This document shows positions 15,366 to 52,378 of a stretch of DNA of 64,000 bases, one piece after another. The DNA comes from Linanthus parryae (taxonomy: Eukaryota > Streptophyta > Magnoliopsida > Ericales > Polemoniaceae): the NCBI GenBank assembly GCA_023055425.1, contig JALGPY010000004.1:63015718-63079717 (forward strand), read 5' to 3'. Within the stretch, counting starts at the first letter, position 1; every line of letters begins with the position of its first letter. The position numbers were made by a program, and so were the translations under genes. The notes under the pieces are model-generated. The model ran no database searches and was not told the DNA's origin. It worked only from the letters and a program-made list of their open reading frames with translations.

Positions 15366-16280
15366 CAAACTTTCTGATCCAAACAGCTTCCTTTGCTGCG
15401 CCATTTGCAGCAATGTACTCAGCCTCTGTTGTAGAATCAGCTACCGTCTCTTGCTTGGAACTCTTCCAGCTCACCGCAGATCCATTCAGGCAAAACACAT
15501 ATCCCTATTGTGATCTAAAGTCATCTCTGTCGGTTTGGAAGCTTGCATCCGTGTAACCCCTTACACGAAACTCTTCCTCACCGCCAAATATCAAGAAAGC
15601 ATCTTTAGTTCTTCTCAAGTACTTTAGGATGTTCTTGACTACAATCCAGTGACTCTCACCTGGATTGGATTGGTATCTGCTTGTCATACTCAAGGCATAT
15701 GACACATCTGGTCTAGTACATAACATGGCGTACATGATAGATCCTATGGCCGAGGCATAGGGAATTCTACTCATGCGTTCCTTCTCCATCTCATTGGAAG
15801 GACAACCACTCTTCGAAAAAGTGATTCCATGTGACATGGGCAAGAATCCCTTCTTGGAATCTTGCATGTTGAACCGTTCAACACCTTGTCAGTATATGTA
15901 CTTTGACTAAGGCCTAGCAGTCTCTTAGATCTATCTCTATAGATCTTTATACCGAGTATATAGGTTGCTTCCCCTAATTCCTTCATTGAGCAACACTTCC
16001 CTAGCCAATCTTTGACAGATTGCAGCATGGGAACGTCGTTTCCAATGAGTAGTATGTCATCCACATACAAGACCAGAAAAGCTACAGAGCTCCCACTAAC
16101 CTTCTTGTATACACAAGACTCATCTTCGTTTCTGATGAAACCAAACTTTTTGACCACTTCATCAAAACGTCGATTCCAACTCCTAGCAGCTTGCTTCAAT
16201 CCATAAATGGATTGTTGCAGCTTACAGACTTTGTCGGCTTGCTTTGGATCTTCAAAACCCTCAGGCTGTATCATATACAC
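15366..16280 (-). pseudogene. Copia reverse transcriptase palm and RNase H N-terminal part
   Basis: From right to left: MIQPEGFEDP, KLQQSIYGLKQAARSWN, then the catalytic YVDDILLIGND (intact), LGEATYILGIKIYRD, LSQSTYTDKV, a frameshift near 15870, MQDSKKGFLPMSHG, IPYASAIGSIMYAMLCTRPD, LKYLRRTKDAFLIFGG, YTDASFQTD, then a stop and the RNase H segment with [13 protein letters not shown] and AEYIAA ending at KFV. The right end connects through another frameshift near 16290 to the 16271-17107 frame. It would copy element RNA into DNA; the stops make it non-functional. Confidence 0.92.
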
Positions 16281-17326
16281 GTCCTCGAGGAGATTACCAT
16301 AAAGGAATGCTGTTTAGACATCATCTGCCAAATCTCATAGTCGTAGTATGCTGCAATTGCAAGTAGGATTCGGATGGATTTGGTTATAGCGACTGCTGAA
16401 AAGGTTTCATCATAGTCAATACCATGAATCTGTCTGAATCCTTTAGCCACCAATCGGCCCTTGTAGGTAATCACATTACCATCCATGTCGATCTTCTTCT
16501 TCAAGACCCACTTGCACCCTATGGGTCGCGCCCCTTCAAGTGGTTCCACCAAAGTCCATACTTTGTTGGTATACATGGATTCCATCTCGGATCTCATGGC
16601 TTCTAGCCATTTCTGAGAGTCTGACTCTTTTATGGCCTCTTCATACGTAGTAGGCTCATCATCTATGAGCATTGTGTCACCGGAATCGATCACGAGAAGT
16701 CCATACCTCTCGGGTTCCTGGCGCACTCTACTAGATCCACGAAGCTTTTGTGTTACCTGAACAGGCTGTTCCACAACTGCTTGTGGTTCCTGTTCATGTT
16801 TCATAATTGGTTCGGTGATTTGTGTTTCTTGAATTTCTTCAAGTTCCACAGTCCTCCCACTTGCTTCTTTAGAGACAAACTCTCTTTCTAGAAACACGCC
16901 GGTCCGAGCGACAAACACTTTGTTATCGGTTGGATTGTAGAAGTAGTAACCCTTAGTTTCCTTAGGGTACACCACAAATTTACACTTATCCGACTTTGGA
17001 CCTAGTTTGTCTGATTGTAAACGTTTTACATAGACATCGCAGCCCCAAATCTTCATGAACGACAATGTGGGACGCCTCCCATTCCACATCTCATGTGGTG
17101 TTTTCATGACTTATTTAGATGGAACACGGTTAATGGTGAAAGCTGCACTTAATAGAGCATAGCCCCAAAATGATAATGGAAGATAGGTTTGACACATCAT
17201 AGATCGAACCATATCCAATAGGGTTCGATTCCTCCTCGCAGACACGCCATTCCATTGTGGCGTTTCGGGTGGAGTGAGCTGGGACACGATCCCACACTCT
17301 CTAAGATAGTCATCAAACTCTTGGCT
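16271..17326 (-). pseudogene. Copia integrase end, connector and start of reverse transcriptase
   Basis: Same frame as 17327-18400, separated by in-frame stops at 17327 and near 17108. It carries the integrase end (TPPETPQWNG, NRTLLDMVRSMM, PLSFWGYAL, then MKTPHEMWNGRRPTLS and WGCDVYVKR), the PKETKGYYFYNP block, an acidic connector with many Glu and Gln, and the RT entry (RPIGCKWVLKKK, YKGRLVAKGF, YDETFSAVA). The frame breaks at about 16290, in the segment where IWQMDVKTAFLNG would normally be. Part of the polyprotein of the copia at 10112-22124. Confidence 0.88.
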
Positions 17327-18400
17327 TTAGTATTCTCCTCCACGACCCGGTCGTAGAGCCTTGATACTTTTCCCAAGTTGCTTCTCTACTTCACTCTTGA
17401 ATTCTTTGAACATTTCAAAGGATTCAGATTTGGCCCTCATAAGGTACACAAATCCATATCTACTGTAGTCATTAGTAAATGTAATGACGTAGACATAACC
17501 ACCCCTGGCAGGCGTGGAAAATGGCCCACATACATCAATATGTATGAGCGCCAATTGCTCACTGGTCCTATCACCTTTCTTATTGAAAGGGGACTTTGTC
17601 ATTTTTCCCAATAAACAAGCCTCACATGTCTCATATGATTCAAAATCAAATGAGTCTAGAAATTCATCCTTATGGAGTCTAAATACACGTTTCTCGTTTA
17701 TATGGCCTAAACGACAGTGCCTTAAGTAAGCAGCATTTAAATCATGTATTTTAATCCTCTTGGTATTAATTTTGTAGACAGGATTGCTTAGATCAAGGAC
17801 ATACAGTCCATTAAATAATTGCGCACTACAATAGTGAATATTATTAAAATAAAAGGAACAACAATTGTTCTTTATTGAAATAATAAAACCTTCCTTGTCC
17901 AAACAAGAAATAGAAATAATGTTTATGCTCATAGCAGGCACAAAATAGCAATTATTTAATTCTAAAACTAATCCTGAAGATAGAGATAGCTCGCACACAC
18001 CCACGACCAACGCAGCAACCTTTTCTCCATTCCCAACGCGCAGGTCTATCTTCCTTTTAGCAAATTTTCTACTTCTCTTTAGATCCCGCACATTTCGACA
18101 AATGTGAGATCCACATCCAGTATCTAATACCCATGATGTAGAGACAGTTAAATTGACATCTACAACAAAAATACCTGGTGGTGGTGGAATCACTATTCCA
18201 AGCCTCTTGTCCTCCAGATATTTTGGGCAGTTCCTCCTCCAGTGTCCAGGCTGACTGCAGTAGTGACACCCACATTTAGTCACACATTTGGCAATGCCAC
18301 CAACAGGCTTAAGGGCAGGTTCCTTGAGTTTGGCAACTGACTTGCCTTTGCCTTTGGAGGAAGAGGCAAACCTTTTTCCCTTTCCTTTATGTACCATCAT
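17327..18400 (-). pseudogene. Copia Gag zinc knuckle, protease and integrase core
   Basis: 357 codons in one open stretch. Order: Lys/Gly/Ser-rich basic start, CCHC zinc knuckle CHYCSQPGHWRRNC (nucleic-acid binding), protease active site WVLDTGCGSHIC, the pre-integrase zinc-binding region (CRLGH..., CEACLLGKM), then the integrase core with HIDVCGPF and FTNDYSRYGFVYL. The frame ends at GRGGEY-stop (TAA, 17327), after which the same frame resumes. Protease would cut the polyprotein; integrase would insert the cDNA. Confidence 0.92.
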
Positions 18401-19028
18401 AATGACCTTGCACTTACCCTTTTTGATTCTTTGTTCAGTTGTTCTCTACAAATTAAGTAAATTTGGCAGTGGTGTCATGATCTCGTTCATGTTATAGTTC
18501 ATGATGAACTGTCCATAACTCTCTGGCAACGATTGCAACACGAGATCGGTTGCCAACTCTTGGCCGACCGGGAACCCCAGTCGGGCGAGTTTCTCCAAGT
18601 ACCCGATCATACGGAGTACATGGGGTCCCACCGGGTTCCCTTCTTCCAGATGACACTTGAACAATGCCCTAGAGACCTCATACCTCTCAATCCTTGCCTG
18701 CTTTTGGAAGAGCTCCTTTAGATGCTCGATCATATCGACATCATTCATGTTTTCGTGTTGCTTCTGAAGCTCAGAAGTCATGGTGCATAGCATAAGGCAG
18801 GCCGCATCATTAGCGTCATCAACACGCTTGTGATACGCCTTTAGGGCTGCAGGGGTATTGTTCTCTGGACCTGCTGGAAATTGCTCCTCTATTGCGTACA
18901 GTTTCTTCTCTTGCTTGAGAACAATTCTCAAGTTTCTGTACCAAATCAAGGAAGTTGGTTCCAGAGAGCTTGTCCTTCTCAAGGACAGATCGTAGGGAAT
19001 GTTGAGAACTCGCTGAGTTGTTTGCCAT
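18401..19028 (-). pseudogene. Copia Gag (UBN2-type)
   Basis: Starts at the ATG ending at 19028 (MANNSASSQHS), with KDKLSGTNFLDW-like entry, a frameshift near 18950, then the capsid region: YRNLRIVLKQEKKLYAIEE, DDANDAACLMLCTM, ARIERYEVSRALF, EEGNPVGPHVLRMIGYLEKLARLGFP, DLVLQSLPESYGQFIMNYNMN. This is the UBN2 Gag fold common in plant copia. An in-frame stop at 18446 separates it from the zinc-knuckle part. Gag assembles the particle in the cytoplasm. Confidence 0.9.
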
Positions 19029-27440: not shown

Positions 27441-28278
27441 AGCTGACTTGTAACCTTAGCTGAAGCTGATATTTCTTAATTAGGAGTTTAGGACATATCA
27501 TACTGTTGATACTCATTTCTGATGTTAATGCTTTTCTCACTTCAAACAAACCTTAATTAGGGTTTCGGAGACACAAATAAGCCGAAAAGGTAGGGTATTC
27601 TCTATTTGTAGGAGTATGTATACAAGGATCCTAATGGATATAATTTCAGCTGTTGGACCAAGACAGAGTTAAGTATTTTCAGAAATAGTCCTTTTACAAA
27701 TCATGGACTTATATTTGCTGTGACTTTCATTTATGTCTGGAGAATGCAAAAATGGAATTATGCTCTTCTAGTTTGCAGCAGCTTAAGTCAAGTCCTTCAT
27801 TCTTCTAACAACACTCTCTCTCAATTTCAATAATATTGTTGATGAAACCCCCTTGAAAAATAGCTCAAAATAAAAAGCTTTAATTTAGGTTTCACACCCA
27901 CGAAAAATTCACAGGTTCCGATCACGTAGCTATGAGCATGCTAGCACCAAGTTAGGCAACAAATCTAGTGGTACGACTTTCTTAAGAGGAGAAATCAGAA
28001 TCTAATAAAACACACATAAAAAGTCAGAGGATCACAAGCATAAATGGTCCCATGGTCTGGTACAACTAGGGTTACCACATCTTGCTGCAAACCCAGAAAT
28101 CAATAATTCATATGAAAAAATCGTATCATGCATATCTAGAATGTAAGATCATTTTTTTGACGATCCATCATGCACTTAAAATGATGAAAGCACCTCAGAG
28201 CAATTTGATTGAGAAAGTCTTAATGGAATACTATGTCACTGGTAGCTGATTGAGTTACATGACTTACAGTGACGAGGG
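27441..28278. other. Unassigned 0.8 kb flanking the PDS5 element
   Basis: No gene recognised. A short block at 27556-27595 (GAGACACAAATAAGCCGAAAAG) has a near copy at 62888-62930. The last five bases, GAGGG, are the left target duplication of the element that follows. Confidence 0.5.
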
Positions 28279-28609
28279 TGATGCCGGACGACAAGGACGA
28301 AAACTCTAGCAAGTAAGGATAAATGAATCATCCCAGATTCAGACAATAATCTCAAGAACTCAAATGGTTTTATTCATAAATGAAGAGGACTTATTTATAG
28401 GAAAAGTAGACAACTTCTATAAGGAAATATAATTATTTTTTTCTGGAAACTAAATAACTAAAGCCTAATTCACCATAAATAAATATAAAAATCAAATCAA
28501 GTTTGAAATCATCAAATCTTTTCCCACTGTGATTGAAAATCAACCCAAATTTGAAATCATTCCATATTTCGCTTATTGTAATTATTATTTTCCTTCTTTT
28601 TCTGCATCA
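28279..28609 (-). repeat. 3' LTR of PDS5-carrying element
   Basis: 331 bp. Contains the TATA-like TATAAATA and an AATAAA on the coding strand, so promoter and polyadenylation signals are both present in a very compact LTR. Lacks a 21-bp segment that the other LTR has between ATTCATAAAT and GAAGAGGACTT. Confidence 0.95.
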
Positions 28610-28622
28610 TTCTCCCCTGCTT
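28610..28622 (-). other. Polypurine tract of PDS5-carrying element
   Basis: Coding strand AGCAGGGGAGAA directly before the LTR start TGATGCAG. A related tract (GATGGGGAGAA) sits at 29998-30009 before the internal LTR fragment. Confidence 0.85.
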
Positions 28623-28630
28623 AGAGAACT

Positions 28631-29796
28631 CTACTCCTGTAGAGTTGAGAAGAAACATTTGCCACGATCTTTCCAGCACACCAAATACTCCAAAAGACTG
28701 TCACGATTTGTAAATTTCGGCTGACTTGTCCAATGAACTAAGTACCTTCTAAAATTATCCTTTACTGAAGAATCGGAATACTTTTGCCACTGGACCATAT
28801 ACTTCTGCAAATAAACTTGAACAACTGACTTGTGACGATTCTTCCAACAATGAAAGTACTTCCAATTATCTCGATTCAACAACGCGTATGGGAAATTCTT
28901 CCAGTGGACAAGATACTTCCAAAACATGCTTTGAGATGAAAGAACATACTCGAATACACATCTATTTGAATCTTTCACTTCGAATGAGGATGGCATGGAC
29001 TGAGGAAGAAAATAAGTGGAGCCAAAGTTTTGTCCTTCTTTGAATTGGCTAGTAAGCATAACTTGAGGTCCAACGGCATATTTAGAATATGCCACATCCT
29101 CACAAGAAAAAATAGCCTCATCCTCTGACTTGTCAAGACAATCAGCAATCTTTAGAGTTTCAGGAGGTAGACATTTAAGATCATGATTTGGAAAGTGTGA
29201 GACCCTGGAGCGGTTAGAAAAGAATAGGCCAATATGGTCAAACACATGACTTCCTCCAATTCTTCTCGATGTATTTGTTTGTGACTCAATTCGGTATAGA
29301 AGTAGTTGGTCAAAGATAATCATGGTGAAGGGCAGTATTGTGGAGCTTTGTTGGTCTGAGCACAACATTCTTATTTACTTGGATGCAAACTGTACTTACT
29401 CCATTGTGAAATTGTTACAATCGGCTTAGGTATCCAAGCAATAAAAGCAGATGAAACATCAGGATCTTTAGCGGTAAAATTCTTAGGACAAATGTCCTCC
29501 ATAGTTAATTGATCGCTCTTCTTAGCTTGATCCACATAAGGAATGAATGTTGTAGAGCAATTCTCAAAAACCTTCCATCCCAAAGTTTGAGTGATCGTTG
29601 TAACGCCATTACCTTCTTCCAAACAAGCGAGAACCGGAGAAATCAACTCAGTTGAGTCGTCTTCATTGAGCAACATACTCATGATATTCTCCATGTCTTC
29701 AAACACTGATGATGGATGCTCTGGTTTAATGACGGCAAAGAACGAATGAAATGTGGAAACTATCAAATCATAGCACTCGAGATCCAGCATCAACAC
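28631..29796 (-). pseudogene. PDS5-like cargo, copy B (with 19-residue repeats)
   Basis: Starts abruptly at the segment VLMLDLECYDLIVSTF, followed by EHPSSVFEDMENIMSMLLNEDDS, a HEAT-repeat part of plant PDS5 proteins (cohesin regulators in the nucleus). A frameshift lies near 29370: the sense frame continues as VVLRPTKLHNTAL, matching copy A. A ~120-codon middle part of unknown origin follows, then five tandem 19-residue units (28634-28925) with the pattern W-K-Y-L-V-x-W-x-x-x-P, ending FFSTLQE-stop beside the PPT. The N-terminal PDS5 part present in copy A is missing; upstream comes an LTR-like piece with TATAAATA only about 30 bp before ATG-Leu-Asp-Leu. Broken, but similar enough to copy A to show both derive from one parent. 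Confidence 0.85.
28634..28925 (-). repeat. 57-bp coding tandem repeat, five units (copy B)
   Basis: Five successive 19-codon units beginning WKYLVHW, WKYFHCW, QKYMVQW, RRYLVHW and LEYLVCW. Spacing from each to the next is exactly 19 residues. The core aromatic and basic positions are kept while linkers vary, which suggests past selection on the protein. Confidence 0.92.
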
Positions 29797-29997
29797 AATG
29801 GGAGAAGGGGTACTTATTTATAGGAAAACTAAACCGCTTCTAAAAGGAAACAACTAATCCTGCCTAATCTTTGGAATTCAATATTAATGATGATAAATCA
29901 AAAATCAATCAAGACTTTTGACTTCTTATTCAATTCCTTATTGAGATAATCATTGTCCCAACTTTCAGTTAATTTCTCCTTAATTGATTCTTTATCA
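29797..29997 (-). repeat. Diverged partial LTR inside the PDS5-carrying element
   Basis: On the plus strand GTACTTATTTATAGGAAAAC and CTTCTAAAAGGAAA match the LTR blocks GGACTTATTTATAGGAAAAG and CTTCTAAAAGGAAA. The right end TTTATCA next to TTCTCCCC repeats the LTR/PPT border (GCATCA next to TTCTCCCC). The rest is diverged. It corresponds to the LTR from its start to just past the TATA box; the remaining LTR part and the first part of the PDS5 sequence are missing. Confidence 0.8.
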
Positions 29998-30019
29998 TTC
30001 TCCCCATCTAGAGAAAACT

Positions 30020-31691
30020 CTACTCCGTAGAGTTTCTACTGACAAACTTTGAGCGACTCATCCAAAGCACCAAGGACTTCCAATACATATCACAAGCAGG
30101 GAAGTCTGGACGACCCGTCCAATGAACCAAAAACTTCCAAGAATCATCATCAATCAAAGCTTTAGGTTGCATATCCCAATAAATCAACAACTGCAACGAA
30201 TTGGTCCGAGGAATTAACTTGGGACAATTCTTCCAAAAAGTAAGATATCTCCACAAATTGTTACGAATTGAGAAACTTGGATGCTTTTTCCCATGAAATA
30301 AGTAATTCAACATCTCATGGTGACCAAAGAACTTTGAACACTTCTTCCAAGAATGAAAATAATTCCAACTCACACCGTGCAAAGATTGAGAAAAGTTGCC
30401 ACTAAAACATATCAGACATTCTCGAGTTACGTCCTGATATGGAAGAGAATAGTTGAACTCGACACTTCCATTTACCGGTTCAACTTTAAACTGAGATGTT
30501 GTGAATCCACATGTAGTTTTTCTTTCACCATGTAACAAGACTGGTGTAAAATCCTGAATCTTCCAAGTTGTACGAGAACAAATCATATCTTCGTACTTGA
30601 TAGAGCAACCAGCAAACCCATAGTCGGGAGCAACGTAGATGCCAACATAGTTCTTTTTGTCTCCTTGTTTCAAGTCAATGCCAAGTCTCGAGGTTCTTGT
30701 CTTGAAAGTACTAAGAAGACAGTCAATATGGTACAAGGCAAATGGCTTAGAAAGGCTACCGTCAATAAGTGCAATGGTTGTATTCTCGAGCTTTGTGGGC
30801 CTTAGCATGGCGTACTTGCTGATTTGGATAGAAACGGAACTCCATTTCCACATAGTCACAATAGGCTTGTCTATCCAACTAGGAAGCTGAAATCCTTGAC
30901 TTAGCTGAGTGTCATAACCAGTTCTGATTCTATAGTTAGTAGGATAAGTCTGAACGTAGTCTTCTCCTCGGTCCTCATTGAAGGTCTTAATCTCAAATTT
31001 TGTCAATATATGTTCACGTTTTGTTGAACACTTATGCAGGACTTTCTTCACTAATTGTCTGGCTATTTCTGCAACTTCTGGACAATCTGCCAAACATTCA
31101 AAGAGTGGATAAATGGACTCTGCTAAAATGGCATTACTTTCATCGAGTAAAATACTCATGATACTCTCCATATCTTCAAACACTGATGGGGGATGTTCGA
31201 ATGTGATGGTGGTGAGAAATAAGCGAAACATAACACGGATCAGATCATCGCACTCGAGATCGAGCATCAACACAAATACCCTACAACCAGCAACAATATT
31301 GAGAATATTGACTGCTTTTGTTTATGAACGATTTGAAGGATTCGATAAACTCCCCAAAGAAAACACAATGATCTCAAAAATGTCCTTCATCTGTTCATCC
31401 TCAAAAGATAGAATTGGGGCTGTAATTCTTGTTAATTCGCAAATACAAGTAATCACCGGAATCCTCACATCATTGTTCGGATGTGGGGAGAACCCCCTGC
31501 AATGCATCTGGCGGGGATTGCTCAACATTGCTCAACAAATATTCAACTCGATCAAGTATAAGAATAACTTCATGAGTTGATGATGGTAGGTGCACGAGTT
31601 TTCTTACAACATCTTCCAGTTGCTCGGGAATGTCCTTTGCTTTGAGCAAACTTGGTTGTAGTTTCAACCAACTAGGTCGTAAGTCGAACAT
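30020..31691 (-). pseudogene. PDS5-like cargo, copy A (with 19-residue repeats)
   Basis: Three consecutive pieces of one PDS5C-like protein. 31691-31480: IPEQLEDVVRKLVHLPSS and EYLLSNVEQSPPDALQ. After a frameshift and a small deletion, 31510-31322: NNDVRIPVITCICELTRITAP, SFEDEQMKDIFEIIVFSLGSL. After an in-frame TAA (about 31320): TKAVNILNIVAGCRVFVLMLDLECDDLI, EHPPSVFEDMESIMSILLDESN and VAEIARQLVKKVLHKCS. These are the N-terminal HEAT repeats of PDS5, which binds cohesin. They are contiguous, without the introns I would expect in a host gene, so they came through RNA. From about residue 110 of the main ORF the sequence is unrelated to PDS5, and the last ~118 residues are six 19-residue units. 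Stop and frameshift make it a pseudogene as it stands. Confidence 0.87.
30025..30370 (-). repeat. 57-bp coding tandem repeat, six units (copy A)
   Basis: Units begin WNYFHSW, LNYLFHG, WRYLTFW, LQLLIYW, WKFLVHW and WKSLVLW, each 19 codons apart, usually with Pro or Ser at position 11 and Lys, Asp or Phe nearby. A seventh, degenerate unit may precede them (ECLICFS). The open reading frame ends at the same relative place as copy B, beside the PPT. Confidence 0.92.
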
Positions 31692-32655
31692 ACTTCCTTG
31701 ATTCGTTCTTGAAAATCTCTCATGAAGAGTTGTAGGCTCACAGTGAGTAGGTTAGACTCGAAAGTTCTGTGGACTTCTTCAAGTGATGAATTCGTGGGCG
31801 GTTAATATTGGATGGCTGCTGATACTAGGAATATACGGACCAATAAAGCTGATGGGAGGTGAGTTAAAAGGGGAAGTACGGGTTAAGGGTTTGAAGGGTG
31901 AACTTGACTTCCCTCTTTGTTTTCTTCTCGAGTAACAAGCGAATTGCTTCGAGAGTGGGGACTACACGTTGATCGGCTAGGTTCTCCTGCGATTTGGCGG
32001 TGCACTCCTTGGATCTTGCGCGAGATCTTCAGGAGGTTGTCACAGCGGGTCAGTGGCCTTTCTATGTAGCAAGATTGAAGAGCATGCCTCCTTTGCGAGT
32101 TCTTGGTCTTCTGTTTCTTCTCCCTTTCTTCCTCGTTCCCTGATTCTTCTTGTTCTTGGTCTTCAGTGATTGTGAGGACGAAGGTGTAGGTTAATCTGGC
32201 TATAGAGTTGTAGGGTAGAGAGCAGCAACTGTGATGGTGATCGGTTGTTGAACCAGTCTTACCTTTTTGTCTTGTCTACTTCTCTTTTTCGTCCTCTTTG
32301 TCTTCTGCTTATTCTCTTCTCATCTTTTCCCGTTTCGCTTCCCTTTCGCTTCGTCCTTCAACTTCTTGTTGTGCGTTGATGGTTGCCCCCGAGGCTTCTG
32401 GTCAGATCTTGGTGAGCAGACGAATTCTGACTTTGGTGTCTGTGCAGCAGCAGTAGTGGCGGGACTCGGAGTCTGGATTCGATTGGTTATGGTCTAAGCC
32501 TCGTCTGGGCTGAATATTCTCTGATGTCGCTGATGTGAACATCCACGAGTCTGGGCTGTAAAGAAGGCGGAAGGAACAGTGAGGCAGCGACAGTGTCGAT
32601 GAGGCAGAGGCCGCTGTGACTAAAGGCGGAGACGGTCGGTGGTGGATCGGAGTTG
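31692..32655 (-). mobile_element. 5' internal region of PDS5-carrying element, no recognised gene
   Basis: About 0.96 kb between primer site and PDS5-like copy A. Reading frames on the coding strand are short; one stretch near 32090-32170 is rich in Lys and Arg (KTKNKK, RKKGRRNRR-like), another near 31700-31800 reads LEEVHRTFESNLL. Neither resembles Gag or Pol. The origin of this leader is open. Confidence 0.6.
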
Positions 32656-32668
32656 GGCTCTGATACCA
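32656..32668 (-). other. Primer binding site of PDS5-carrying element (initiator Met tRNA)
   Basis: Coding strand TGGTATCAGAGCC, two bases inside the 5' LTR end CTGCATCA. A standard copia-like primer site. Confidence 0.95.
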
Positions 32669-32670
32669 AA

Positions 32671-33022
32671 TGATGCAGAACGACAAGGACGAAAACTCTA
32701 GCAACTAAGGATAAATGAATCACCCCGAATTCGGACAATAATCTCAAGAACTCAAATGGTTTTATTCATAAATCAATACTGTCTTAAAACAGGAGAAGAG
32801 GACTTATTTATAGGAAAAGTAGACAACTTCTAAAAGGAAATATAATTATTTATTTCTGGAAACTAAATAACTAAATCCTAATTCACCATAAATAAATATG
32901 AAAATCAAATCAAGTTTGGAATCATCCAATCTTTTCCCACTGTGATTGAAAATCAACCCAAATTTGAAATCATTCCATATTTCCCTTATTGTAATTATTA
33001 TTTTCCTTCTTTTTCTGTATTA
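32671..33022 (-). repeat. 5' LTR of PDS5-carrying element
   Basis: 352 bp, TGATGCAGAACG to CTGTATTA on the plus strand (two changes from the expected CTGCATCA). TATA-like TATAAATA on the coding strand at 32805-32812 and AATAAA at 32761-32766. Followed by GAGGG. Confidence 0.95.
32805..32812 (-). promoter_or_regulatory. TATA box in 5' LTR of PDS5-carrying element
   Basis: TATAAATA on the coding strand, conserved in the 3' LTR and in the internal LTR fragment. AATAAA follows about 40 bp downstream (32761-32766), giving a compact promoter-R-polyA layout. Confidence 0.65.
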
Positions 33023-33027
33023 GAGGG

Positions 33028-41346: not shown

Positions 41347-44300
41347 ATGACCAGAACGAAGGCAACTAAATCTGTGAAAGAAGTTGATGAAATTCTCGAT
41401 CTTCCTAAATCTTTGTGGAAGAAAGCTCCTTACCTGGGTGGTGAAGACTACTACCATGCCAGTGTCAAGTTAAAGAGGCTGCATGAACCTGTTTCTAAAG
41501 ACCTGTTATTTCTAACCCCTCAACCTAGTCTAGAAGAGTTAGATTTAATTGATGCCAAGGACGTAGTCAGATTGGGCCTTGAAAATGGATTCTGTCCACA
41601 TACTGAGATCTTGACCCAGGCTTTCGTGAACAAGTTGGATTTAATGGATGAATGGACTGACCATGTATTGACTTATCATGCTGTCAATCTGACCCAAGCT
41701 GGGGTATATTACGCCATCAGAGCTACAAAGGGTGCTGCTGTGAAACTGAATCTCTTTTCCAGGTACTCACCAATAACCCATGCCTTCCATTTTGCTGAGT
41801 TCGAGGCAGCCCCCACCTTGGAGGACGTGCACATGCTGTATGACCTTCCTCCCATGGGCGAAGTCGATCCTTCGCTGCACTGGAAACTGATGAAGAGGTC
41901 GCTTTATATGAGCAGATGGTCGAGTGCATTGCGGAGGTCAAGAAGATTTCTACTAGTTGGACATCTGCGAAACCCCTTCCAAAATTTCAATTAATTGACA
42001 CCTCTGCGAAGAATACTTGGAGAAAATGGGTGCAATACTTCTTCCGTGAGTATGCAAATAGCAAGATCACTAAAGAGCTGCTGGACAAAGATCCCAAGGC
42101 GGAGAATTTCATAGAAGGTAAAGGGTACAACTGGACTTTGTGCGGCTTCCTTTGTATTTGTCTTTCTCGGTTCTTGATTGATGGTCATCCCCATGATGGA
42201 GTCTTCTATTATGTTTTGCCCATTTCTCTTCGCCTATTCTTAGGCCAGAACGTCGCACTCGGGCCTCTGGTGTTGGGAACTCTCTACCATCGATTGGACC
42301 AGCTTGTTGCTGCAGTGGAAGAGTCGCGTGGGAGACTTGATGTTCTGTCTTTTGTCAACATTTCCTTCCTTACCATGTGGGTTTTTGAAAGGTGGAATTC
42401 ATATGCTCCTACCCCTTCAAGAGCCAGATCATGGAATGTTCCTGGTGCTCAGAATGCGCTTCGGTGTGGGAGAGCTTCACGGTGGTATAGGACAAAGGAT
42501 CCCAAGTGTAAATGGAGTTTGATCTGCGATGATCGAACCAAATTCGTTGCCACGCCTTATGCGACTTGCATTGAAGAGGTGCGATTCTACTCGCGTATGT
42601 ACCCGTCTGAAGGTGGCCCCATTTCTAAGGATAGCCTCACCAAAGGGCCTAGCTGTTTCAGCGAGTTTGTCTGTTGGTGTTTGAGAGGCTCATTGCCCGC
42701 TCTTGCGGAGCATATTACTGAGATATTTCCCAAGTATGAACGTATCACAGTTGACATTGATCACATTCGCGTATGCCCCCAGCTGGACTATGACATAGTG
42801 GCACCTTCTCTCTGGCCTAATTCAGTGTGTAGAGTTTTCTAAAGCGACTGCTGACATTCATGTGTAAATCTGCTCTGCTTGCTAGTCTGCCTTTCGATCA
42901 ACCTTTAGGGAAGCGCGAGGGTCGCCCCACAAAAATTTGGGTCTCTTTCTGGAATACTCAGCTGGCAAGGTTTGCAAAATCGGCTTCACCGTGCATCAGC
43001 AGGGCTCCCTCTATTTGAAGGAATTCCTTCCCATTTATTCCTTTCTGGACAAGGAAAATCACCCGTGTGCCAACTTGATCCTTTCTGAGAAAGTGGCCGC
43101 TGTTAAAGAAGGACTTCAAAGCATGATTGAGTACAGTGAATCCTTTTCTAAGGTAAATAACACTTCCTTGCCTTTCTTGAAATGCATCTATTTCGGGTGC
43201 GGTGTCTTACATAAAATTCCCTCTTTTCAGTGCTGCTTGAGGAGGTTCGCATCTGGAGACCGCAGTTTTGCGCTGGTCGATGCTCTCCTTCATGCGAAGA
43301 GAAGCAAGAAGGTCATCTCTTTGACTATGAAAAGGGATTCTAAATTGGAGGCTCTTTTGCGCTAGGAGATGGATGTATTCGTCCGCTCTCTGATAAGCGA
43401 GAGTGCTGAAGCGGACGCAGATGTTGCTCCAAGGGAAAAAAGGCAAAAGAAAAAATCAATTGTGATTTCTTCGCCGCCTAGGGAAGCTCCGGTTTCACCG
43501 CCCACGGAGGCTCCTGCTCCCAAAGGAAAAGGCAAAGGTCGCCTGCGCAGCAAGTCTCGAAAGGAAACTGCAGTTGAAGACTTTATCCCATACAATCAGG
43601 AGGAAGAAGAAGATATAGAAGAAGAAAGAGAAGGAGAAAGATAAGAAGAAAGAGAAGAAGAAGAAAGGAAAGAGAGTTTAAACGGTAATTGAATGAACTC
43701 ATTTTTCCTTTAGTCACGAACTTTGACGATAATGTTGTTAAAGCAAACTCCTTCTTAGCAGACGATGATAATGAAACCATCAGTGGCCTTTTGGCCATGG
43801 AACGTGGACGAACACGGGGCTCTTGCCCAGATGCGTCAAGTGAGGCCATAGACGCGCATATAATCAAGGAATCCAAGAGAATGGTTGTTGAGGCGGAAGA
43901 GAGAAGAAGGAAACGCAAGGAGGATGATGTGGAAATGGTTACAAGGAGGAGTCTAGAAGAGCAACATGCTGGCAGCATGAGTGTGGCTGCTCTAGAACAA
44001 GCACAAATTGATTTCGAGGAAATCGCTGGCGGTGAAGAAGGTACTATTTTTAATCTTGATGTAACCTATCAAGAGGTAATCTTTGGTGCATTAAAGCATG
44101 GGGTAACTAAACATGACATTCGTAGGTGGTTAGTGGAAAAGTGTGGTGAACCCTCAGGTAAAATACTTGAACAATAGTTGCAAGTGAACTTAACAAATCA
44201 TTCCGTGGTGTAACGAGTTTTTCACGTGACATCAGGTCATGCACACCTTAAAGATGTGATAAATGAGGGAACACCTGTTTCATATGGTCTTGAAGCTGCA

Positions 44301-46097
44301 ATCCCACATGAGTGTGGAGGTGCTCGCTTTTGATCTAAATATAGAACAGAACATAATGAATAGTTCATGAATCATATTACCTCGGTGATTTATTCTCATT
44401 CATCCTGCAGGTGGTGCTGCTTTGATTGAGCCTACTGCTGCGCAAGGAAAAATTGCTGGTGCTCCTGCTGTGAATGTGACCACTGGTGAGGCAGGTGTTG
44501 GTATTCCTGCTACTAACTCAGCCACCAACGAGCTTGGCCTCATAGATCATCAGAATCCTGAAGGCATAGGCGATTTGGATCCTTATGACCCCTTGCTGTG
44601 CGAGGTTCAGCTCATCTCTCCTCCTAGAACTTATGCTAACAGGTCTAGCTTCTTAAGAAGTGCCATTGTTCCTACGGCTGATGTAATTGCCCAGAGTAAC
44701 TCTGAGGATGTTATGGTGCTTGAACAAAGGAGTCAATCTCCCATGGCTCGCGTTCCAGATCGAAGTTCGCACACGGAGAAGCCTACTATGGTTACTGATG
44801 ATGCAGGAGAGCCCCTGAAAGATGTGACTGATGGATCTAAAGGTGATGGCCTAGACGCCGAGATGCGAGAGGGGAGTATTGAAGAAGAACGTGGAAATGA
44901 GGGTGGCATGGACGAAGAGATGGAGGCAGAATGTGTTGGAGCTGAAGTTCGCACAAATGAACAAGTCTCTGAACTTCCAGGAGCTCATCCATTCATTGAA
45001 GACCAGCTGTCTCGTAAGAATGTTGATGCCCCAATGGTGGCTTCTGAGCTAAGGGAATCTTCTGAAAATGAGAAAATCTCTAGACAAGCAGAAACTGATC
45101 AAAATGCTCTCCAATCTTCGCATGCGAATGTGGATGCCCCCATGGAGACTCTTAAGACAAGGAGGCTTTCTGAAGAAGCTGTAGCTGCTGATAATAGTGG
45201 TGTTCCTCCTCCAACTGTTAGTTCTGCTGCTGAAGTTAGTGGTGTCAATACTCCACCAATCTCCTCTAGTCATGCTGCCTCAGTTTGTGTTTCAAGGCCC
45301 CCTCAGCAAAACCCTGCTATGCCTTCCCTTCAGATAGACTTCTCTCAAGTACCCAGTGCGTGGAGCTTGTGGGGTTCGCAGGCTACAGCGGCTATTGCAG
45401 GTGTTCACACTTATGTCATTCCAGCTGACTACGACGAGCGCGAAGCTTTAGCTGATAATCAAGTAATGCAGCAGGGAAATAATTCAACATCCCAGGCTAT
45501 GCGCATTCCCTCATTGCGCCAAATTATTGAGGGAACAGGTATGTCGTACTACGATCACGTCTCATATTTGTTATATTTCTATGCTAATGTTCATAAACTG
45601 AAGCTGTCATTTCTGCAAGCATGAGGCAATCTGACTTGGACTGGCTAATGAAGATGCGTCTCTCGTATACGAGGTCATTTGCAAGGGCTTTGGAGCTAGG
45701 TCCCAATGAGAGGATAATTTACCTGAAAAAAGCCATCCGCCTTTTGGGGCAGATATCTGTAGCAACTCCGGTTACCATCTCAGCTGAAAATGCGCGATAT
45801 CTCTTTGAGACATGCCAAAGACTTCAAGCTAATGCCCAGGGAAAGTTGGACATTGTTTTCCTTCGTCGGAGGCTCAACCAAATCCTCAACTGTGTTATGC
45901 TAAAGTATGGCCGTCGCAACCTTGTCATTGAAACCAACAAGTTTAAGGAGCAGAAGAAGAAGGCCGACGATGTTGCCAAACTCTTCTATGAGATGAAAGC
46001 TAGTGTCGAGCAGCTGAAGCAACATATTGCCAAGGCGGAGAAGGCTTCGATCTCTTTATTGCCAGAGGACCCTTTAGAAACGGATTTGTTTCAATAG
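41347..46097 (+). pseudogene. Antisense gene with plant mobile domain and coiled coil
   Basis: Plus-strand gene opposite to gag-pol. The N-terminal ~500 codons (41347-42842) are a plant mobile domain: THAFHFAEFEAAPTLEDVHMLYDLPPMGEV (around 41780-41870), then the second half with GYNWTLCGFLCICLSRFLIDG, VLPISLRLF, LGPLVLGTLYHRL and FLTMWVFERW. A frameshift near 41890 separates the halves. Next come an acidic/basic region with a Lys-rich likely nuclear signal (REKRQKKK, 43425-43450), a long disordered Ser/Pro/Glu-rich part (44411-45537) and a C-terminal coiled coil (45621-46097) ending at a TAG. One intron is well supported. PMD proteins (MAIN, MAIL1) act in plant nuclei in silencing; the role inside elements is not known. 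Frame breaks suggest this copy is decayed. Confidence 0.8.
44159..44410 (+). other. Predicted intron of the antisense gene
   Basis: Donor CCTCAG|GTAAAA and acceptor CATCCTGCAG|GTGG. Splicing joins GGTGAACCCTCAG to GTGGTGCTGC in phase, giving GEPSGGAALIEP, and links two frames that are otherwise closed off by stops. A second candidate (43153-43230, AAG|GTAAAT to TTTTCAG|TGC) is in phase but also open, so undecided. Confidence 0.7.
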
Positions 46098-47861: not shown

Positions 47862-48611
47862 CTAGTGTACTAGCTTCTGAACCATAGTCATGTAGCTCAA
47901 TAAGTTGATCTCCTTTAGGCCATACTCGCCTGAAGCTTGTTTGAAAATAAGCTTCGAGTCTCCCATGACCATTAAGTTGCTTACTTCCAGTGCCTTACAT
48001 GGGAGGATCCCTGCGATTAGAGCCTCATACTCTGCTTCGTTGTTAGTGACTGGGAAATCCAACTTAGTCGACATTTGGATGACTTCCTCGTCTGGCTTGG
48101 TCAAAACAACACCAATTCCTCCTCCTTTTCTTGTTGATGATCCATCGAAATGCAGCTTCCAGTAGAGTGATTCGACCGCATAAGTTTCAGGTCCTTCTAA
48201 ATCCTCCTCTATCATAGGCTCATGATTGTTGTCTAGGAATTGCCCCAATAAATCTGCCACTGCCTGAGACTTAATTGCTTTTGGACGAGCGCAAGTGATA
48301 TCATACTGCGAGATGGTCATATACCACTTTGCTAGCCTTCCACAGGGAGATGAATGACTCAACAGATAACGGATCGGGTCACTCTTTGTGATTACCACAA
48401 CTTCGTGAGAAGTTAAATAGTGCTTTAACTTTCCTATGACGAAAAATAAAGCAAGGAAATGGCTCTCTATGTCAGTGTACCTGGATTCAGCCGGCTGTAC
48501 CACGCGGGAGATGTAGTAGATTGCTCTTTCTTGTCCCTCATGCTCTTGAGCTAGCAGCGCCCCTATAGACTTCCTGGTCGACGTCAGATACAACAAAAGT
48601 GGTGACCCTAA
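47862..48611 (-). pseudogene. Gypsy RNase H plus second, archaeal-type RNase H (Tat hallmark)
   Basis: Same frame as RT, after one in-frame stop (48612). First domain: STRKSIGALLAQEHEG, AIYYISRVVQPAESRYTDIE, the degraded gypsy RNase H. Second: LHFDGSSTRKGGGIGVVL, NNEAEYEALIAGI, VMGDSKLIFKQASGEYG, with the D-E-D acidic residues of an active RNase H. The double RNase H is a defining trait of Tat elements. It ends at a stop at 47862 before integrase. Confidence 0.9.
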
Positions 48612-49646
48612 TTAAGGCGCGATCATTACACGTGGCGATGTCAACAGGTCCTTCAGCTTTTCGAACGTGGCCTGATACTCCTTTTTCCAATGATACATGG
48701 CGTTTTTCTTGAGAAGATCACCGAAACAGAAAGTCAGCTCTGCGATTGCCGATACAAATCTTCGCCGATACGATAATTTTCCCAAGAATGTCTTTAAAGT
48801 GCTCTGGTTGTGAGGTTCCACCATGCTAGTGATAGCTGAAATCTTCACAGGATCGGGCTCAATCCCATGGCGGTGAATCACACACCCCAAGAATTTCCCA
48901 GAAGTTACCCCAAATGCGCACTTCATTGGGTTCATCTTTAATTGAAAATTCCTGCATCTTTCGAACACCTTTCGTAGATCTCCCAGATGATCTGCTTCTT
49001 CCCTTGATTTGATAACCAAATCATCAACGTAGAACTCAACTTCCTGATGCATCATGTCATGGAAAAGAGCCATCATGGCACATTGATAAGTTTCACCTGC
49101 ATTTTTCAATCCAAAGGGCATAACCGTGTAGTGGAAAACCCCAACTGGCGTGATGAACGCAGTTTTCTTTGCATCTTCAGGTTCCATCTTAATTTGATTA
49201 TACCCACTGAAACCATCCATAGAACTAAACATGCGGTGACATGCGGTAGAGTCGATGAGCAGGTCTATGTTTGGTAGTGGGAAATCGTCCTTGGGGCAGA
49301 AGCGGTTGAGATCTCTGAAGTCCACACAGATGCGAAGCTGTCCGTTTTTCTTGATGAGTGGCACAATGTTGGCCACCCAAGTAGGGTGATGATTAGGCTC
49401 AATGAACTTGGCGTTGAGCAACTTGACTATTTCCTCTTTGATCTTCATGTTGATCTCTGGTCTGAAACTTCTTGTGCTCTGCTTTACCGGTTTGGACCCT
49501 GGGACAGCATCCAATCTATGCATTGTTACCCATGTATCAAGGCCAGGCATCTCGTCGTACTCCCATGCGAACACATCTTTATATTCTGTAAGCAGTTTTA
49601 GCGGTCTTTCTTCCTCTTTGCCCTTGAGATCGGCACTCAGGAACAC
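48612..49646 (-). pseudogene. Tat-type gypsy reverse transcriptase
   Basis: 345 codons with all RT blocks: YKDVFAWEYDEMPGLD, KIKEEIVKLLNAKFIEP, WVANIVPLIKKNGQLRICVDFRDLN, CPKDDFPLPNIDLLID, FSSMDGFSGYNQIKM, GVFHYTVMPFGLKNAGETYQ, the catalytic FYVDDLVIKS, and TFLGKLSYRRRFV. Aspartates of the active site are kept. ETYQ replaces the common ATYQ. The ORF itself is clean; stops lie at both borders of the polyprotein frame. Confidence 0.93.
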
Positions 49647-49868
49647 ATGCCTCTTTTTCTCTTCGAATGGACTTAAGAATACTTCCTTTAACTCCTGTTT
49701 TTTTTGGCTTCGTTTGTCCTACATGCATTTGGGCGCTTCTCTCAATTTCTCCTCCTGTGGGCCTGTCTCCAGTTTACCCTCTCTTGGTGCTCGCTCGAGT
49801 TGGTTGATTTTCCCAGGGATATCCCCATGCTGAAGTGGGGGTACCCCCGCGCGCCTTCATATGTGGTA

Positions 49869-50759
49869 TCACTTTCTACCATTGGAGTAGAAACTTTCTA
49901 CTTCTTTGCCCTTGCTGTCATGTTTCACTACCCTTTTTAGGGTGTATACGTTCTTCTTCTGGTAAACGGTCTTTGGCACCTCTTCGCACGCAGGCACCTT
50001 CTCCTTGGGATTTTCCCTTGTCACCATCACTCCCGCAGGTGACTGATCCTTGATATCTTCCCATCGAGGCAAAGGGGTTGGCTTAAATGGCCCAGGTGTC
50101 TGCTCGTCCGCCATCTCGGTGAGCCATACTGCTTCGGTCAGGTGCGCCTTATTCAAGTTGAATGGGTTTATCGAAGATGGTATCTCAACTACTCTGCCAT
50201 TCCAAATGGCCTTCATCACTTGATGGGCTGTTGAGGGTACTCCGTCAAAACAATGGATCCACGCCCGGCCGATGATCATGTGATAAGTGGTGTTCGCATC
50301 AGTGATGTAAAACTTGGCATAACACTTTATCTTTCCTATCTGAAATCCCAGGCGAATCCACCCCACTGTCATCCTCGAATCGCTTCCGAATCCCATTAAC
50401 GAAGATGGGTGTCTGACGATCTTCCTCTCCGGAATGCCTGCTAACTTCAAGGTGTTGAGTGAGACTACGTTGACGGCCACTCCTACATCAAGAAACGCCC
50501 TTTTGAATTCGACGTTATTAATCACCGCCGTGACATACAGTGGCTTCTGATGGCTTGCATCTGTCTTCTTGTCTGATTCAGAGAAAGCCATTACCCTCTC
50601 AAGGGAGCGAGAGGCCCTTACAACTCTCCCATTAGAGACAACTATGTCCTCCTCAAAGTCTTCTGCCACTCTAACGATTGCCTTGGTCATCTCCTTGCGG
50701 CACCCCTTTAAAAAATTCATTTCATCAAAGAAACTCCTGAATCTGTGTGATCCCTTCAT
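49869..50759 (-). pseudogene. Tat-type protease region
   Basis: 296 codons. The active-site segment reads AFLDVGVAVNVVSLNTLKLAGI where an acid-protease D-x-G is expected, followed by MGFGSDSRMTVGWIRLGF, YHMIIGRAWIHCFDGVPSTAHQVMKAI, the usual Tat/Ogre wording after the protease. The same frame as RT but closed by stops at 49869, about 49860 and about 49722. DVG may be a variant or a mutation; catalytic ability unproven. Confidence 0.85.
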
Positions 50760-50813
50760 TCATGAACTTCAGCTACGTGTCCATGCTATAGTCTTCCTCA
50801 TCATGAACTTCAG

Positions 50814-52378
50814 CTACGACAGGTTGCCCATCATCTGCGATTTCTTCAAGGTCCATATCACGATCACGGCCACCTCTTTGTCTTTTGGCTCTTGTTCTGA
50901 GTGGGCTGGTAAGGATTGTTGCGCACATCCTGCCTCTGTTCGCTGATGACCAGTTCCCCTTCCTTCATTTTCTTGTTCACGAGCCACTTGAGCTTCCTGC
51001 ATTCAGTTTTGGGATGCATGACCCTTCCGTGTCATTCACACCACTTTGGATCCCTTAGCTGCTCCCTAGTGGGTGACCTTTCGAGCTGGGGTAGGATACC
51101 GTCTTTGCGCCACTGTTTGCAGAGCTGAGTTATCTCCCCAACGGAGCATGGCAGTGGCGGGACATATTTGGTCGAGCCCTCTTGTAGTTAAACCTGCCAA
51201 CCCTGAAGGTCGATCCTCCCGGGGCTCGCTCAGTGGAAAGCTTCTTCCTTTTTCTCTCAACTATGGGCTCAATATTCTTGGTACAATCAATTAACTTAGA
51301 AAAAGTAGGCATTTGCAAGTTAATCAGCATACCTTTGTACTCGTCTCGCATTCCTTGGAGGCATATCTCGACGAGCCGACTTTCAACCACCTCATCTCTG
51401 CACTCCGGTGACTTTGTTCTGAATTTCTTGATAAACGCGACTCCTTCTTCATCATGCTTTTGATACAAGCGTGACAGATGAATCACTGTGACCTTCTCCT
51501 CCATATGAAAAATCTTAGTATAGAAATTTTTGACCATATCCTCCCATGTCCTTATGGAGCCGGCTTCCAAGGTCCTATACCACTTGTATGCGACGTGCCC
51601 CAAAGACTTAGGGAACTCGCGCATCATTAGATTAGGATCAACCCTGTGGGGCCCCATCATGTCGATGAAGCGCATGACAAGCTCCTGAGCATTCCCATTG
51701 ACCTCGTCAAACTTGTCCCATTTGGGGGATTTGTACCCTGCAGGGTTGGGCATAAGGTAAATCTCGCACGGAATAGGAGGCGCGTTATCAACCTTCAGGA
51801 TAACGGTGTCCGTGAAACATTGATTCGCAAGGAAATTATCCAGGCGCTGCTCCAAGGCCGTCATGCTTGCTGGTGCACTTCCTCCCGTAGCAGGAAGAAG
51901 GGTTGAAGCTGGGGAAGGCACATATACATCACTTGGATTGGGGGCGTAACCAGCGTTGTTTACAGCTGCAGGCGGGGAAAGCAGGGGGTGCTATGGTTGG
52001 ACATTAGTGGGAATGCCAGGTAGCTGATAAACAGGCGCAGCAACCGATGGTTGAGCAATATGTCCTTGGGTAAGATATGAATGGAAAGTTTTTGGTGGGC
52101 TTTTGTAAGTTGGAGCTAGGGGGTGTGGGTGTTATCCCTGTCCCCTGGGGAGCAGCACTTCCCAGTGCCGGATTCTGAGCAAGAGTTCCCTGAATCGACA
52201 TGATCTGGGCCATTTGTGCAGACTGAGCCTGGATAGACTTCGCCTGTCTTTGGAGGGTTGCATTCAACATCTCCAGGGTCGGAGCACCACCAGCTGCTGC
52301 AGAATTAAGGTGGGTTTCCTCCCCTGAAGTTGTCTCTGTTGAGGGAGATCGAGTGTTGGCATCTTCATCGTGAGACAT
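50814..52378 (-). pseudogene. Tat-type Gag
   Basis: Starts MSHDEDANTRS at 52378; a Ser/Thr-rich N-terminus like that at 121-450, frameshift near 52090, then the capsid region (51130-51921): MREFPKSLGHVAYKWYRTL, WEDMVKNFYTKIF, LSRLYQKHDEEGVAFIKKFRT, LVEICLQGMRDEY. A tail near 50900-51050 reads HPKTECRKLKWLVNKKMKEGELV with C, H, H and C spaced as in the Tat zinc motif; a stop sits where Trp would be. Gag forms the particle. Frames change at about 51130 and 52000. Confidence 0.87.

Follow-up and report, generated by a model that had tools for sequence, protein, structure and literature searches.

A PDS5-derived module in a probable superfamily of non-autonomous long terminal repeat retrotransposons of Linanthus parryae

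A 64,000-nucleotide stretch of the Linanthus parryae genome (assembly GCA_023055425.1, contig JALGPY010000004.1, positions 63,015,718 to 63,079,717 of the forward strand), referred to here as the window, contains a long terminal repeat (LTR) element that carries sequence from the cohesin regulator PDS5. The element occupies window positions 28279-33022 with its sense on the minus strand, as do all internal features described below. It is flanked by the target site duplication (TSD) GAGGG (28274-28278 on the left, 33023-33027 on the right), which was read by eye because one element end has mutated. A primer binding site (PBS) of the initiator Met type (TGGTATCAGAGCCC, 32655-32668) adjoins the right LTR on the minus strand, so the right repeat (32671-33022) is the 5′ LTR and the left one (28279-28609) the 3′ LTR. 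Both are of what we call the A type, and a search with this type through the source genome, which in this and all other copy searches comprised 1.51 Gb in 121 contigs, returned 43 matches. The two repeats differ by a Kimura two-parameter (K2P) distance of 0.050 over 331 sites. Before the 3′ LTR lies the polypurine tract (PPT) GCAGGGGAGAA (28610-28620), whose GGGGAGAATGAT motif occurs in 8 of 12 sibling stretches examined, and ahead of it an inverted repeat, AACTCTACAGGAGTAGAGTT (28627-28646), runs over the stop codon of a tryptophan-repeat frame and is found with its exact pattern in 7 of 12 such stretches. The original prediction, made from the sequence alone, had described intact borders; the TSD, PBS and PPT were confirmed, and of the TG/CA ends it listed, the outer end of the 5′ LTR failed, as it reads TA rather than TG (sense start TAATACAGAA).

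The interior begins with a leader from the PBS to the coding region (31692-32654) and holds two diverged units. Unit 1 (30023-31691) runs in the order MFDLRPSWLKLQP start, PDS5 homology (30959-31691), domain X and 19-residue tryptophan repeats, denoted W. Its PDS5 segment is damaged by one TAA codon and one frameshift, with about 15 residues missing, and its X and W part (30023-30874, C type, W units at 30029-30370) is an open frame whose protein is at most 91% identical to those of open frames at other places. In unit 2 (28634-29796) a shorter A-type PDS5 piece (29527-29796) is followed by X and W (28634-29433, W units at 28640-28924) in a frame broken near 29371. About half of each reading frame, namely domain X and the W repeats, is not PDS5. 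Between the units are a second PPT (29998-30006), preceded by a second copy of the inverted repeat (30016-30034), and 200 nt from the 5′ end of a third LTR, which has diverged (29799-29997) and breaks off just past its TATA box. The arms of the inverted repeat, AACTCTAC..GTAGAGTT, are kept just ahead of the PPT and across the stop codon in both units. The internal piece is called an LTR because it sits behind a PPT and matches the LTRs of three other elements (L017, L020 and L022) at 82-91%. Its K2P distance to the outer LTRs is 0.65, against 0.05 between the outer pair, and its clear likeness to them is confined to its final 50 nt. A call based on likeness to the outer LTRs was rejected; without the last 50 nt the local score was 27, against a mean of 20.7 and a maximum of 34 for shuffled sequences.

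The identity of the PDS5 part rests on profile matches, host comparisons and a structure model. The Pfam family PF20168 was found in three separate open reading frames (ORFs) of the window (E 9.8e-11, 5.5e-10 and, for the piece in unit 2, 2.9e-10), in the PDS5 segment of unit 1 with its one stop read as X (E 3.6e-31), and in five intact sibling frames (E 8.5e-39 to 9.6e-43). These matches in element frames exceed the gathering score and are limited to positions 3-218 of the 1053 in the profile. The original prediction had named a VEQSPP segment among its PDS5 matches; the ORF that holds it (31473-31691) gave no Pfam PDS5 match on its own and gained support from intact relatives, whose PDS5 match starts at this segment. 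A Pfam scan of five interior ORFs of the window found no family besides PDS5 above the cut-off, and the predicted lack of gag and pol was borne out in these frames. In the best host match the PDS5 part corresponds to host residues 6-274. The nearest relatives are plant PDS5C/D-type proteins, with top matches at 45-50% identity over host residues of about 5-274, and the closest among the 120 listed of 142 relatives is from Diospyros lotus at 46% identity. Neither the N-terminus of the element family nor a W repeat occurs in any of 122 PDS5-type proteins. Among the listed proteins only Striga P0011 has a long match that extends beyond the PDS5 part; it was set aside, as its own charged tail aligned there with gaps. 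The module comprises the N-terminal part of PDS5 only, without the Tudor region.

Several features indicate a common history for these modules and a shared departure from the host protein. In a tree of 44 rows (6 from elements and 38 chosen from the 122 host proteins), with a bootstrap that had not settled, a long window row and midpoint rooting, the element rows formed one side of a branch with a support of 100/100. The six tested copies are one clade, and as far as tested PDS5 was taken once. Element ORFs have the common N-terminus MxDLRP(S/T)WLKLQP, and the intact element L010 keeps 42 of the 54 columns that are at least 95% identical in host proteins. The AP(D/E)AP loop is identified as the Wapl site by genetics and structure (PMC4793087, PMC10656103). 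It is present in 107 of the 122 host PDS5-type proteins, with five unmatched by the search string, and reads APVLP, PPILP or APILS in the seven element rows that cover the region and APILP, APDLP or APKLP in C- and D-type frames; residue 4 is leucine in all of these element variants. A structure model had a mean predicted local distance difference test (pLDDT) score of 44.8, with blocks of the PDS5 part at 55-84, and its Foldseek matches 1-4 were PDS5, which supports a predicted HEAT array for this part. An earlier fold model (unit 1, 3 rows) reached a pLDDT of 36 and was not used. A search of solved structures with the 417-aa ORF of unit 1 did not return PDS5, and did so once the upstream PDS5 part was added.

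The window element has many relatives. A search of the genome with a PDS5-type protein (query P0001) gave at least 103 matches with 86 of 379 candidates scored. At least 24 distinct places, 23 of PDS5 type and 1 of gag type, have an open frame of at least 480 aa without a stop in the match; these counts are lower bounds, and open here means stop to stop, with ends checked at some of the places. The usual member has one unit of about 2.6-3.5 kb and one ORF of about 530-570 aa, in which the PDS5 N-terminal HEAT region is followed by domain X and W repeats. Elements of the A type are about 2.7-2.8 kb long with an intact ORF of 540 aa (L009, L010, L011), and intact ORFs measure 532 aa in the B type (L022), 569 aa in the C type (L025, L026, L028) and 561-570 aa in the D type (L036, L037). 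The 19-aa periodicity exceeded all 500 shuffles in 9 of 12 ORFs. A repeat pair was present in 27 of 34 stretches, the window included, with none in the DNA examined of the other 7; the pair at L047 is unlike an LTR of the PDS5-X-W family. An exact 5-bp TSD was found by script in 9 of the 34, that of L043 with a doubtful left end, and in 7 stretches the LTR pair ran to the stretch edge, so that a TSD was readable only in the others. The LTR pairs of L010 and L011 differ at 0 of 354 and 1 of 357 positions, both with exact TSDs, that of L009 differs at 3 of 351, and those of L036 and L037 are identical over the compared 222 and 257 nt. With paired LTRs, TSD, PBS and PPT, the family has the features of LTR retrotransposons, and many copies carry LTRs with differing TSDs. 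The PDS5-X-W family has multiplied, with recent insertions. All eight A-type LTR pairs examined (L009-L016) hold PDS5, and the alternative that the same LTRs elsewhere enclose an ordinary gag-pol interior did not materialize.

Some copies are arranged in ways worth recording separately. Three near-equal PDS5-like copies lie about 55 kb apart at G000:C57:133517603-133628122, as if a large segment had been tandemly repeated, and four near-equal broken X-W copies lie inside about 306 kb at G000:C37:2561110-2867596. At G000:C35:4361087-4430384, a cluster of PDS5-like frames, about 190-265 aa long, accounts for seven match rows within 70 kb, possibly tandem retrogenes; the one stretch read there (L044) had no family LTR pair.

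Families of pol were absent from the Pfam scans of the given ORFs, so that reverse transcriptase, integrase and protease, which an autonomous element would have, were not found in these elements of about 2.6-4.8 kb. As no pol was found, the elements would have to be moved in trans. Searches of viral contigs and plasmids gave no match, and a protein search with the 417-aa window ORF gave none among 1360 candidates at E 0.01. The W repeats were considered as a chromodomain and rejected; the best match had E 0.0094 and 16.3 bits against a gathering score of 25.1 over 11 residues, and matches in siblings were likewise below threshold and 11-13 residues long.

A search of the genome for the host-only loop pattern found two places (L064 and L065), both with PDS5 exons, and a control gave 0. 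At L064 the coding match is split into residues 1-34, 32-112, 102-162 and a remainder, the parts lying several hundred bases apart, and L065 breaks near residues 102 and 162. The introns of L064 near residues 34, 102 and 162 fall where the element ORFs are continuous. Host PDS5 genes thus have introns inside the captured stretch and the ORFs have none, which indicates capture by way of spliced RNA. A search for the host gene by its Tudor region gave three weak matches, with no PDS5 N-terminal exons in 9 kb around two of them or in a short stretch of the third. The proposals that a mobile family acquired a PDS5 transcript and that the capture was RNA-mediated accordingly stand; what the original prediction had missed are the double unit, domain X, the W repeats and the gag-bearing relatives.

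Positions 28279-29798 (unit 2 and the 3′ LTR) have 88-95% DNA identity to the A elements L009-L016, and unit 1 has 76-91% protein identity to the C-type elements L025-L033. Because unit 2, unit 1 and the internal LTR match different sets of elements, the window copy, as judged from these matches, is a damaged composite in which two subfamilies are joined, separated by a fragment of a third LTR. It probably arose by template switching. The idea that PDS5 was originally captured in the window element itself, as a single PDS5-carrying locus, has nothing in its favor beyond a first reading, and it is refuted by the single-unit siblings with intact frames and by the union of two subfamilies in one copy. 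Another tandem form was seen at L020 (G000:C112:20192500-20200000), which has three LTRs; the starts of two of these are about 340 nt apart, with a PBS and PPT between.

Relatives with another front end show that the X-W tail is not confined to PDS5. In one element, L049, which is bounded by LTRs and a TSD, the X-W tail follows a gag-like N-terminus (PF03732 E 8.7e-4, below the cut-off), which matches the gag of L048, itself above the cut-off, at 36% over 99 aa (E 2e-16). A genome search with the X-W tail of L049 gave at least 154 matches with 132 of 352 candidates scored, PDS5-type places included, and many matches lie at places absent from the PDS5 match list. Front ends were read at five such places chosen among long frames (L059-L063) and all five are gag-like, which with L049 makes 6 of 6 non-PDS5 front ends. 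The gag-type L061 and the PDS5-type L022 share 93% DNA identity over 146 nt from 11 nt before X. In X-W, the PDS5-type L037 resembles the gag-type L049 (159 of 264) more than it does the PDS5-type L036 (132 of 253). The dS between A and B types is 0.98 for X-W, against 0.16 for the PDS5 part, as expected after exchange. On sequence evidence, one X-W tail occurs behind two kinds of front end and the N-terminal module has been exchanged. At L048 (G000:C101:78511500-78519500) one LTR pair encloses, after the PBS, a broken gag frame (PF03732 E 6.9e-10, 39.5 bits) and a PDS5-X-W frame that is likewise broken; the locus may be an intermediate or a second composite.

We consider it very likely, from the sequences compared, that the window element belongs to a large superfamily of non-autonomous LTR retrotransposons with an X-W tail, an exchangeable gag-like or PDS5 module, a single RNA-mediated capture of PDS5 and movement in trans. 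The usual member would make one protein, with the shared C-terminal X and W repeats behind a swappable N-terminal module. The PDS5 module would correspond to roughly the first 260 residues of a cohesin regulator of the plant PDS5C type, acquired long ago from a spliced transcript; its later spread through at least four X-W subfamilies (A-D) would most probably have occurred by template switching during reverse transcription. Reverse transcriptase and integrase would come from an autonomous partner, and gag-X-W is probably the older form. The opposite order, in which PDS5-X-W came first and gag replaced PDS5 later, is a less probable one that draws on the unrooted direction of exchange in the data. 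As an ordinary module of retrotransposons, gag argues for its own precedence, as do the larger number of matches in the X-W search relative to the PDS5 search (at least 154, PDS5-type places included, vs at least 103); the element with both gag and PDS5 fits either order.

Codon comparisons bear on a role for the module. Among ORFs that start with the family N-terminus, from 32 different loci, the 13 of at least 500 aa were kept (four of them, L027, L029, L041 and L043, with altered or shortened ends), and their 78 pairs were compared by the pairwise Nei-Gojobori method without a tree model. In the PDS5 part dN/dS is 0.22-0.32 between the A/B and C subfamilies and 0.14-0.23 between D and the others, at dS of 0.9-2.0 with upper values near saturation, and 0.25-0.38 in A-B pairs at dS 0.10-0.19. 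The X and W part gives 0.43-0.82 between subfamilies. The two window units compared with each other give 0.23 (dN 0.38, dS 1.64), with a pN/pS of 0.45 (bootstrap 0.33-0.62). Constraint on the W repeats of the window alone was weak (0.49, 0.48 and 0.56 differences per codon position). These ratios suggest that the PDS5 piece kept its protein sequence during multiplication and does something for the element; given constraint on the chimeric protein, this protein probably acts for the element. If instead the capture was passive, with PDS5 as filler, like most captured gene pieces, in frames that are open merely from the youth of the insertions, one would point to the several young open copies, the many broken ones and the dN/dS of up to 1.14 within the C subfamily. 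Neutral filler would have decayed at the distances between subfamilies, though, and the copies form one clade with a common N-terminus, so we hold this explanation to be very improbable. It is also unlikely that PDS5-X-W is or became a host gene under selection at the level of the plant, with the LTR copies as offshoots. The cluster at C35:4.36-4.43 Mb, with its shorter frames and no family LTR pair in one stretch, speaks in favor of such a gene, but intact PDS5-X-W frames flanked by LTR pairs, with TSDs where testable, occur in subfamilies A-D at places unlinked to one another, and such a protein is absent among the 122 PDS5-type proteins.

A number of observations weigh against the superfamily interpretation or parts of it. 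No autonomous partner was found, and a PDS5-X-W protein occurs in none of the 120 listed of 142 relatives. All six gag matches of the non-PDS5 front ends are below the Pfam cut-off (E 6e-4 to 0.048; 14.3-20.4 bits vs 24.1), and among the gag-type front ends LTRs were checked for L049 only. For domains X and W no fold was predicted with confidence (pLDDT of 42 or less per block), and the periodicity did not stand out from the shuffles in L022 (285/500) and L041 (125/500). Within subfamilies the constraint on the PDS5 part is less apparent, with dN/dS of 0.40-1.14 on few changes in C-C pairs, 0.55 in the B pair L022-L043, and 8 nonsynonymous and 0 synonymous changes between L010 and L011. The Wapl loop is changed in every copy read, so cohesin docking by the loop may have been lost.

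What the module does can be proposed only tentatively. The favored candidate is a helical docking domain that would tie the element protein or cDNA to cohesin-bearing chromatin or compete with host PDS5 for its partners; even so, this putative docking or decoy role at chromatin we think more doubtful than probable. A wider proposal, also with the chances against it, is that gag-X-W and PDS5-X-W are alternative working forms in which a cohesin factor functionally replaced a capsid-like module, its host HEAT repeats tying RNA or cDNA to chromatin or weakening cohesin locally. In yeast, one study found more Ty1 transposition in cohesin mutants, as well as binding of separase to Ty1 integrase (PMC4378997). 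By analogy these data make a link between cohesin and retroelements possible in principle, and they are not evidence of one here.

Gene captures by plant LTR elements have mostly yielded fragments whose usefulness is doubtful. TR-GAG elements are LTR elements with a gag domain only; the gag-X-W relatives resemble them, in L049 with LTRs and one gag-like ORF and in L059-L063 as known from front ends only, and differ in the added X-W tail, and the PDS5 class has no gag. Kaonashi is the name for the Ulp1-carrying Vandal/MULE transposons. The classic plant example is Bs1 of maize, an LTR element that took up segments of host genes and has a chimeric ORF (PMC13317346). It shares with the present family the LTR structure, the uptake of a host gene, the chimeric ORF and the capture mechanism. 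Unlike Bs1, which holds pieces of three other genes, the present family has one PDS5 module in at least four subfamilies, an exchange of gag and host modules ahead of a common X-W tail, and a constraint that was measured between subfamilies. KIU and Ulp1 in Vandal/MULE transposons are described as a captured host domain in a mobile family (PMC13317346). There too a captured host protein domain was long kept by a mobile family, but those are DNA transposons with a protease, whereas this is an LTR element with a HEAT-repeat cohesin factor. Relative to host PDS5C/D, the module is an intronless N-terminal part fused to X-W with a changed Wapl-binding loop.

Neighboring DNA in the window appears to hold other mobile sequences. 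By a reading of the ORF list only, copia-type and gypsy-type remnants with pol frames lie at 15505-18982 and 47862-51921, and an ORF series at 41347-46097 resembles what we take to be a plant mobile domain protein of a transposon.

Among the open-access literature matches listed, with subscription papers outside the scope, no report of PDS5 in a retroelement was found; the listed papers that mention PDS5 concern yeast or L1/B1 repeats. In the present family a captured host domain is constrained across diverged subfamilies and alternates with a gag-like module. Its cargo, a cohesin regulator, links the element to chromosome structure, and with many natural copies at hand the benefit of a captured host gene to a retroelement becomes testable.

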